64,000 nucleotides of DNA from Cohnella candidum. GTDB lineage: Bacteria > Bacillota > Bacilli > Paenibacillales > Paenibacillaceae. The translations under genes were made by a program, and so were the position numbers. The notes beneath the pieces are model-generated. The model saw nothing but the letters and a program-made list of their open reading frames with translations, was not told the DNA's origin and ran no database searches. Positions 1,299-53,317 of this stretch are shown in pieces; within the stretch, counting starts at the first letter, position 1; every line of letters starts with the position of its first letter. Location: positions 1,709,001-1,773,000 of the forward strand of contig NZ_CP033433.1 of the NCBI RefSeq assembly GCF_003713065.1, written 5' to 3'.

Positions 1299-1686
1299 TT
1301 GTAACGGTAAAAAGTAACGTTGGAGCAGATCAGTTACTCTCTCCCGTCTCTGCAGCGGTAAAAGCAACGTTGGAGCAGTTCAGTTACTCTCTTCCGTCTC
1401 TGCAACGGTAGAAGGTAACGTTGGAACATCTGAGTTACTCTCTTCCTCCTCTGCAACGCTAGAAAGTAACGTTGGAGCAGTTGAGTTACTCTCTTCCTCC
1501 TCTGCAACGTTAGAAAGTAACGTTGGAGCAGTTGAGTTACTCTCTTTCGAACCTGCAACGGGAAAAAGTCCCGCTAGAGCGTCTGAGTTACTCTCTTTCG
1601 AACCTGCAACGGGAAAAAGTCCCGTTAGAGCGCATGAGTTACTCTCTTTCGAACGGGAAAAAGTCCCGCTAGAGCGCATGAGTTAC
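1299..1686. repeat. 51-bp tandem repeat array with conserved hairpin
   Basis: About 7.4 head-to-tail copies with unit starts at 1316, 1366, 1417, 1468, 1519, 1570, 1621 and 1665, preceded by a partial copy from 1299. Each unit is 51 bp, except 50 bp for the first and 44 bp for the one at 1621, which lacks 7 bases. The invariant core is GAGTTACTCTC (CAGTTACTCTC in the first two units). At the unit junctions lies a hairpin. At 1505-1525 the arms are CAACGTTA and TAACGTTG around GAAAG. At 1608-1626 they are AACGGGA and TCCCGTT around AAAAG. Both arms changed together, so pairing is kept. The array begins 60 bp past the stop of the GNAT gene on the minus strand. Because 51 is a multiple of 3, it shows long open frames with 17-residue repeats; these look accidental. 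Confidence 0.9.
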
Positions 1687-51658: not shown

Positions 51659-51750
51659 CGTTCCCTCCCGTTTTCCAACTTCACCCAAGGAAACGACGGA
51701 TGGGAAAAAACGGTTTGAGGGATTAGAAAATATTTTTCTCATCAGGGGTT

Positions 51751-51862
51751 GTGCAAGAAAGTTACATAACTCCGCCGAATCTTCGAGCCGCTCACGGATT
51801 TATGCTAGAAAATTACATAACTCCACCGAAACCTCGTGCAGCAAACCGTTTTATGCAAGAAA
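51751..51862. repeat. 51-bp tandem repeat array, left part
   Basis: Two full 51-bp units (from 51751 and 51802) and the first 10 bases of a third (51853-51862). The core reads GCAAGAAAGTTACATAACTCC, with drift in unit 2. The third unit is cut by the insertion sequence at 51863 and resumes at 53156. Within the units GTTACATAAC and TCGAATCTTCGA are inverted repeats. Confidence 0.88.
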
Positions 51863-51891
51863 TGGACCTACGTCAAGAAAGTGGACACCAA

Positions 51892-52725
51892 TTAACTAGC
51901 TTTACTCTTACTGAAACTGGAAGCGAAACGAACTGGTGATAAATATCCCAGTGCACCGTGGATCCGTTTGCGGTTATAAAAGAACTCAACGTACCGAAAC
52001 ATCTCGTTGTATGCTTGTTGCTTCGTTCTAAATCGTTTGCAGTAAATAAGTTCTTTTTTAAGGATGCTGTGGAATGATTCAATGCACGCATTGTCATAAC
52101 AATTGCCTTTTCGACTCATGCTTGCTTTCATTCTGTAAGCTTTAAGTTGCTTTTTGTAGTCATCGGATGCGTACTGGCTCCCGCGATCTGAATGGTGGAG
52201 AAGCCCCTTCTTCGGCTTCTTGGCTGCATAGGCATCTTGCAAAGCACCGAGCACCAGATCGGTCGTCATACGGTCCTCAAGGCGCCAGCCCACGATCTCA
52301 CGGGTGCAAAGATCAAGGACGCTCGCGAGATACAGCCGGCCTTCTTTGCACGGAATGTAGGTGATGTCAGCAACCCAAACTTGATTGGGCCGCTGCGTTT
52401 CAAACTGTTGATTCAGAATGTTTGGAGCGATCGGCAAGTCGTGATTAGAGTCGGTTGTTTGAACCTTGTATTTACTCGAGACACAGGAACGCAGGCCGAG
52501 TTCATGCATGTACAAACCGACTGTCCGCTCAATTACCGTATAACCTTCCTCGCGCAGTAAAAAAGTGATTTTGGGAGCGCCGTAGCGCTTCTCTGAGTCG
52601 TTAAAGTGATACGTAATACGCCCCATCAGTTCACGCTTACGTAGTTCCTGATTACTTGGACCAGCAGACCGCCATTTGTAGTAACCGCTCCGGGAAACCC
52701 CCATTAATTCGCACATCTTCTCCAA
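51892..52725 (-). CDS. IS3-family transposase OrfB (integrase core)
   Basis: The frame gives 277 residues from ATG 52725 but continues upstream in frame to the slippery site; the natural product is the OrfAB fusion. The N-terminal part has the HTH_21-like MCELMGVSRSGYYKWR. The rve catalytic triad is visible as VWVADITYIP (Asp), HHSDRGSQYAS (Asp) and ACIESFHSILKKE (Glu). The C-terminus ends in RIHGALGYLSPVRF, typical of IS3/IS150. It is complete with no internal stop. Confidence 0.95.
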   Translation of the reverse strand: MEKMCELMGVSRSGYYKWRSAGPSNQELRKRELMGRITYHFNDSEKRYGAPKITFLLREEGYTVIERTVGLYMHELGLRSCVSSKYKVQTTDSNHDLPIAPNILNQQFETQRPNQVWVADITYIPCKEGRLYLASVLDLCTREIVGWRLEDRMTTDLVLGALQDAYAAKKPKKGLLHHSDRGSQYASDDYKKQLKAYRMKASMSRKGNCYDNACIESFHSILKKELIYCKRFRTKQQAYNEMFRYVEFFYNRKRIHGALGYLSPVRFASSFSKSKAS

Positions 52726-52763
52726 ATTGAACTCGGAGCGATGATCTTCAATGAACTGAAATC

Positions 52764-53081
52764 TTAGTTCTTTGGCTTGCTGAAGATGTGCACTGCCTTT
52801 TTTACAATCGTTAGCTCTTCTTCGACATCAGCGATCTTCCGATCTTTCGCGTGAAGTTCACGTTGCTGCTCTTTGACGAGTTGTTCGAGTTCTTTAATGC
52901 GATCCAGTGAGGCAATGGGTTCATTCTTAAAATCACGATATTTCGCTTTCCATGAATGTAATGTTCTTGCTGGAATGTCGAGCTCCTGGGCGATCTCCTC
53001 GACCGTTTTTGCTTGCTCCTGAAGGAGCTTGATCGTCTGTTTCTTAAATTCCTCATTGAACCGCTGCCGTTGTTCACCCAT
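52764..53081 (-). CDS. IS3-family transposase OrfA
   Basis: A 105-residue HTH_Tnp_1 protein: RFNEEFKKQTIKLLQEQ, then TVEEIAQELDIPARTLHSWKAKY, followed by a leucine-zipper-like coiled coil with Arg/Lys/Glu. ATG 53081 has AGGAGGTG six bases upstream, although the frame opens at 53135. Near its 3' end is a slippery A6G heptamer, so a -1 frameshift joins it to OrfB. Confidence 0.92.
   Translation of the reverse strand: MGEQRQRFNEEFKKQTIKLLQEQAKTVEEIAQELDIPARTLHSWKAKYRDFKNEPIASLDRIKELEQLVKEQQRELHAKDRKIADVEEELTIVKKAVHIFSKPKN
52797..52803 (-). promoter_or_regulatory. Slippery heptamer A_AAA_AAG for -1 frameshift
   Basis: Read in the OrfA frame the codons are GTA AAA AAG, the classical IS3-family signal. 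Slipping back one base lands in the OrfB frame (KKGSAHLQQAKELRFQF), which is open from here to the OrfB stop. It should produce the OrfAB transposase. Confidence 0.9.
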
Positions 53082-53152
53082 GTGAACACCTCCTGAGATA
53101 CATTCATTATTGTGTTCTCTTAACGAGGTGTCCACTTTTTATTCTAGTTGCA

Positions 53153-53317
53153 AAAGTTACATAACTCCGTCGAATCACCGAGCCGCACACGGATTTATGC
53201 AAGAAAGTCACATAACTCCGTCGAATCTCCAAGCCGCACACGGTTTTATGCAAGAAAGTTACATAACTCAGCCAAATCTTCGAGCCGCACACAGAATTAT
53301 GCAAGAAAGTTACATAA
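53153..53317. repeat. 51-bp tandem repeat array, right part
   Basis: Begins with the 3-bp target duplicate AAA, then the remaining 41 bases of unit 3 (53156-53196), units 4 (53197-53247) and 5 (53248-53298), and a 19-base partial unit 6 (53299-53317). The array starts 41 bp past the stop codon of the AlkA-type glycosylase gene on the minus strand. Total length without the element is 274 bp, 5.4 units. Confidence 0.88.

Follow-up and report, generated by a model that had tools for sequence, protein, structure and literature searches.

The 51-bp tandem array at positions 1299-1686 of the window, the whole 64,000-nucleotide stretch of the Cohnella candidum chromosome that was analysed, is a member of a class of intergenic elements of the Paenibacillaceae, and two cases that resemble this class come from a single other family of the order. 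Its members are built from units of about 20-27 bp with full or partial dyad symmetry that lie 50-52 bp apart, and they come in two layouts, either as tandem rows of self-palindromic units or as two-fold symmetric groups of four, in which two copies are direct and two inverted around a centre gap near 61 bp. It is the spacing that is conserved, whereas the letters of the units vary with array and species and the spacers of different arrays are mostly unrelated.

The original observation of a 51-bp tandem array is borne out, as TRF run on the window reports 6.9 copies of period 51 at 1303-1652 (score 397) and eight hairpin positions can be counted, at 1300, 1351, 1401, 1452, 1503, 1554, 1605 and 1649 (span 1300-1675). 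The units, which we call family A, are separated by spacers that are alike within the array, to which as a whole no strand is assigned, and they follow each other at 51 bp except for one spacing of 50 and a final one of 44, the latter because of a 7-base deletion. On the plus strand, unit 1 (1300-1326, TGTAACGGTAAAAAGTAACGTTGGAGC) has one unpaired stem position, unit 2 (1351-1376) is shorter by one base and pairs poorly, units 3 and 4 (1401-1427 and 1452-1478) each carry a left-arm change without compensation, unit 5 (1503-1529) forms eight of eight pairs around the loop GAAAG at 1513-1517, and units 6, 7 and 8 (1554-1580, 1605-1631 and 1649-1675, the last starting 44 bp past unit 7) share a GG/CC variant. 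Both flanking genes are on the minus strand: a GNAT acetyltransferase gene (1747-2304), whose stop at 1747 is 60 bp from the array according to the gene calls, as had been proposed, and a YCII-domain gene (774-1121), whose start is 177 bp away.

Combined DNA and pattern searches for family A gave 23 matches in the host genome (5.29 Mb, one contig) and none in the control. Among 295 genomes of the bacterial family, 14 including the host's own were matched, some by a single match and one by 237 copies, and a reversed control pattern gave three matches in all 295. The 27-base units are 67-85% identical between arrays, and the 24-base spacers are 20-42% identical in 19 of 21 array pairs and 55% and 77% identical in the remaining two, L061 and L063 being the pair with shared spacers (0.77). 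Inside single family A arrays the spacers are 27-85% identical; since they are often alike, the constant spacing within an array is partly a matter of shared descent. Among genomes the stems vary with pairing mostly retained (AACGATA/TATCGTT, AACGAAA/TTTCGTT, AACTATA/TATGGTT) around a purine-rich loop. At L062:2860-3170 a family A row switches to a hairpin family of the TAACCGGG type with a break in phase, and the upstream gene at L058 and at L061 shares its last bases, stop codon included, with the first unit of the array (gaps of -12 and -11). Family A-like hairpins with a period of 114, about 51 + 63, were seen at L104:1348-1620 and L111 of genome G129, and those of L104 alternate in orientation, which is very BIME-like.

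The same genome contains further unit families. Family B, GAGTTGTGCAA-GAAAG-TTACATAACTC, has 44 matches there and none in the control, and it is species-specific, with 0-2 matches in each of 59 other genomes searched. The window holds a 51-bp family B array on the plus strand, the left part of which (51744-51862) is separated from its right part (53148-53317) by an inserted IS3-type insertion sequence on the minus strand (51863-53150, ends approximate; OrfA with HTH_Tnp_1, OrfB with rve). The genome matches one end of this element at two places only, at 51863-53150 of the window and at L066 (706.9-708.3 kb of the genome). Each copy lies inside a family B array or at its margin, and the element may therefore target such arrays as insertion sequences do REPs, which are reported as their targets (PMC1525189). 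A third family, the 20-bp TTATTGCTTTNNGACACTAA, has 47 matches in the genome versus one in the control and forms eight complete four-unit elements of the order ++--, six of which have the exact spacing 51/61/51, while the other two are spaced 51/60/51 and 50/62/51; the remaining sets are one ++-+, three partial ones, one pair and one single unit. The spacers of two such elements that were compared are 23-41% identical, i.e. unrelated. Moreover, at some of 15 loci around family A or B matches the arrays are adjoined by further unrelated dyads on the 51-bp period.

Across the bacterial family, non-coding tandem similarity was determined in 1.98 Mb of Paenibacillaceae DNA, consisting of stretches of the host's own genome and of relatives together with hisH loci; the window and the loci L199 and L205 (Aneurinibacillus and Brevibacillus) were left out of this set, and L271 (all N) out of the lag spectrum. 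The best lag is 49-53 bp in 29 of 70 independent arrays, two of which (L130:135 and L137:148, lag 53) are identical sequence at two contig ends, and every other lag occurs at most twice. Outside the family a lag of 49-53 bp was found in none of 20 arrays from other families of the order and in one of ten from other Bacillota, a set that includes Tumebacillus, Shimazuella and Desulfovirgula, with the sets L160-L206 and L207-L239 divided by hisH rank rather than taxonomy. In other Bacillota the tandem lags have their mode near 20-21 and 40-41 bp. Several Bacillaceae intergenic loci (L208, L210, L224, L225 and L238, from Peribacillus, Bacillus and Neobacillus) contain other, locus-specific short direct repeats that are phased at 20-21 bp (lags 40-42, 62-63 and 82-84), about two helical turns.

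Of the 29 arrays, 11 are of the four-unit type, in which two copies run direct and two inverted. A blind four-unit scan of the non-coding DNA of the Paenibacillaceae set, here with the window, over g1 of 38-66 and g2 of 44-79 (29x36 geometries) placed 22 of 23 matches at g1 50-52, two of the 23 coming from the window and three from one C. caldifontis array. The centre gap of these 23 matches is broad, 13 falling at 56-65, of which five are at 60, another six at 50-53 and four elsewhere, and the six at 50-53 are rows of palindromic units. In family f4 both matches found had a g1 of 50 (50/60 and 50/62), and other Bacillota gave two matches, 41/46 and 51/45. The distribution is patchy, with no 49-53 bp array in 100-kb samples of G001, G002, G005, G006, G008 and G009. 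Dyad symmetry is not universal among the arrays: for the 29 together, a broad dyad test gives p 0.0013 against random non-coding DNA but p 0.068 against other tandem repeats, and hairpin enrichment in the blindly detected 49-53 bp events is weak (p 0.024 and 0.38 in the same two comparisons). A histogram of hairpin distances over coding and non-coding DNA has no peak at 51, and a strict version with an ORF filter has little there, although similarity-based versions did show a 51 peak; 13 dissimilar hairpin pairs lie 51 bp apart versus a mean of 7.9 per lag, an excess that is not clear. When the remaining lags, coding repeats still included, were examined by Fourier analysis for quantisation at 10.5 bp, the outcome was negative (resultant 0.10-0.14 at 10.3-10.5).

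A position where such arrays recur in different species is the gap after hisH. The named hisH closest to that of the host is from Cohnella caldifontis (86%, in a collection that may omit the host's own records). Directly after hisH a gap of more than 110 bp is present in 21 of 45 relatives, some of these gaps being filled by another gene, and by reading, arrays of this kind were recognised in the post-hisH gap of 10 of 46 loci. Their spacings are 51/51/51 in the host's own genome, 52 in C. caldifontis, 52/52/52 in C. pontilimi, 52/62/52 in P. ferrarius, 52/60/52 in P. timonensis, 51/62/52 in P. faecis, 51/63/52 in P. vini, seven times 51 in P. daejeonensis and, if one spurious inverted match is skipped, 52/62/52 in Paenibacillus sp. 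yr247; the array of CAVE-418 was recognised by eye. The letters of the units differ among most of these arrays, those of P. ferrarius and yr247 being alignable. In some species the next gene after hisH is hisF and not hisA, and at L161, L163-L165, L176 and L196 a different type of HisA-like gene (start RPCIDIHQGKVKQIVG) was seen by eye between hisH and hisF.

By setting, the nearest known kind of element is REP/BIME. Like BIMEs, which are intergenic palindromes in regularly spaced groups of direct and inverted units (PMC2817692), the arrays are imperfect palindromes that are dispersed between genes and grouped at regular spacing, and they are mostly located at the 3' ends of genes. Unlike REP/BIMEs, they come in several unrelated unit families per genome, have a fixed 51/61-bp geometry and letters that turn over between species. 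REP palindromes are tagged at one foot with GTAG or CGTC (PMC3733652). The genome of P. vortex, for which 231 tandem repeats are given in PMC3012674, offers another likeness, these repeats being tandem and abundant, and the available part of that article gives no period, hairpin or spacing rule for them. Paenibacillus is absent from the main texts of the RepRanger paper (PMC12306157) and the triplex-repeat paper (PMC4666352), and arrays such as those reported here were found nowhere described in the accessible portions of the literature covered, a scope outside which subscription papers and preprints lie.

What do these arrays do? Because of the 51/61 spacing we favour, tentatively and at less than even confidence, that they are helically phased multi-site DNA elements, REP/BIME-like in setting, with a putative protein partner and function. 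Distances of 51 and 61 bp correspond to 5 and 6 x 10.2 bp per turn; dyad centres at five and six turns would thus make all sites face one way, which inclines us towards a scaffold of DNA, either bound by protein or cruciform. Spacing and dyads would be retained since the element acts as duplex DNA, and the dyads, about five and six helical turns apart on the same face, would be candidate sites at which a protein, as a dimer or oligomer, may bend, bridge or wrap the intergenic DNA. The window copy would be a member grown by tandem duplication, and new variants would spread within an array by duplication, perhaps being born by template switching in the palindrome. Against one sequence-reading protein stands that the letters of the units differ among families of one genome. 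In plasmid iterons and other helically phased arrays of protein sites, the sites are likewise about whole helical turns apart with neutral spacers, but unlike plasmid iterons the arrays here are dispersed, chromosomal and without a single consensus.

Rather unlikely, though the strongest of the alternatives, is a selected RNA element, in which the mRNA is protected or processed through hairpins at its 3' end or between its cistrons, a role that REPs have in some operons. Arrays of the host genome lie between codirectional genes at 12 of 17 loci, between convergent genes at five and between divergent genes at none, as compared to 36, 6 and 8 of 50 background gaps; the shortage of divergent gaps (0/17 vs 8/50, Fisher p 0.10) fits a transcribed setting. 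In the same direction point the location of arrays within his operons in several species and the folding of the window array by itself, which is stabler than shuffles on the minus strand (z -3.45; z -0.91 on the plus strand). If pairing is selected at the level of the transcript, G.U on the sense strand should be tolerated more than A.C. With gene directions from codon-usage gene calls and a stricter terminator control, direct-inverted unit pairs of six codirectional elements yield 33 G.U and 18 A.C on the sense strand when the direction of L181:3694 is corrected by hand from hisH and HisA tblastn matches, and 25 and 26 without this correction. The local hairpins of the arrays, however, have no consistent wobble preference, G.U to A.C being 65:60 in 20 regions (G.U leads in nine, A.C in ten, with one tie), and for the inner pairs the ratio is 55:41 in arrays versus 93:54 in strict terminators (n=124, Fisher p 0.42), which does not tell the two apart, so that the wobble counts as a whole are no argument against RNA. 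Wobble counts that seemed to exclude RNA (66:63 in arrays, 28:44 in direct-inverted pairs and 133:42 in terminators) were rejected for wrong directions and a biased control, as several directions had been taken from ORFs that proved spurious (the genes at L068 and L069 converge, and L088 and L181:3694 had been reversed) and G.T had been counted inside the T run. Rfam gave no match in the window at 1100-1900 or in 15 array loci, which counts against an RNA element, as does the fact that some units have outer dyads only, with loops of about 14 bases. Nor do hairpins in RNA need an exact 51/61 spacing with unrelated spacers.

The case for selected base pairing had originally been built on an in-step change of both arms between two units. 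The arms quoted for it are present, CAACGTTA/TAACGTTG at 1505-1525 and AACGGGA/TCCCGTT at 1608-1626, but the choice was selective, since in units 1300, 1401 and 1452 the left arm is altered and the right arm is not, leaving a mismatch. The GG/CC variant is confined to the three neighbouring units 1554, 1605 and 1649 and is therefore most simply explained by a single event followed by duplication; paired changes derived from one variant unit, named beforehand as what would refute the claim, are thus what the window contains. Six of its eight units tested alone give three both-side cells versus 1.7 expected, which 311 of 2000 shuffles reach and which is not significant. Across loci, with one consensus per array and 26 distinct consensuses, there is a modest covariation excess: 84.6% of cells are paired versus 76.1% in shuffles (0/2000), and 18 are both-side cells versus 8.9 (28/2000), with 3-8 both-side cells in a control in which partners were shifted by one or two columns. 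The 32 distinct units of the host genome alone are not clear (12 both-side cells versus 8.6, 186/2000), and in some arrays pairing is broken, L096 retaining 4-6 of 8 pairs and L097 3-6 of 8. That dyad symmetry outlives sequence is supported across loci and species, more by unrelated families sharing the 51-bp ruler than by the two units quoted.

RNA selection does not necessarily follow from paired changes in tandem hairpins. Template switching is described in PMC8794818 as yielding multi-base compensatory changes in a single event, so that stepwise paired changes are explicable without RNA selection. This leads to a functionless alternative, in which template switching keeps the arms complementary and slippage keeps the units alike. 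The GG/CC change of the window, two adjacent pairs in one step, agrees with it, and template switching may have made this variant, but not the ruler. As mutation alone leaves unexplained that one spacing is common to unrelated unit families, that spacers of constant length are unrelated between arrays and that symmetric 51/61/51 sets exist, we judge it improbable as the full account.

Still less probable is a mobile palindrome, similar to a REP/BIME or a MITE, whose transposase would place new copies at a measured distance of about five helical turns from one already present. Copies of a single unit family are indeed dispersed over many loci, families can be species-specific (family B with 44 own matches versus 0-2 in each of 59 genomes) and L061 and L063 share spacers (0.77). 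A Y1 (RAYT) transposase is absent, however, PF01797 having no match in the host's own genome while the control matched in 5 of 14 genomes, and copies with unrelated spacers are not jumps of whole elements. A coding repeat or a CRISPR array can be dismissed almost entirely: 51 bp would be 17 codons and the array is crossed by two open frames, of 99 and 74 amino acids, but these two ORFs have no Pfam match above the cut-off and periods of 50 and 52 bp in other arrays break the frame, and the likeness to CRISPR, partly palindromic repeats with differing spacers of equal length, is countered by the absence of Cas1 (PF01867, no match in the host's own genome, control matched in 9 of 14), by 24-base spacers that are sometimes shared and by inverted units within one element, which the eight ++-- elements of the TTATTGCTTTNNGACACTAA family show, although the window array itself has one orientation.

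Returning to helically phased DNA, it is possible, and we propose it with more reserve than the DNA reading itself, that the class is defined by geometry and not by sequence. Dyad sites complementary to one another would share one face of the helix, either four of them at 0, 51, 112 and 163 bp or longer rows at 51 bp. This arrangement would be conserved across the Paenibacillaceae while the unit sequences are replaced by locus and species, and it would act between transcription units as a scaffold of nucleoprotein, cruciform or RNA that tolerates changes of sequence. Should selection act on geometry, a well-sequenced bacterial family would harbour a widespread intergenic element that searches based on sequence would miss because its letters turn over, and this element would allow direct tests of the way in which bacteria organise their intergenic DNA or RNA.
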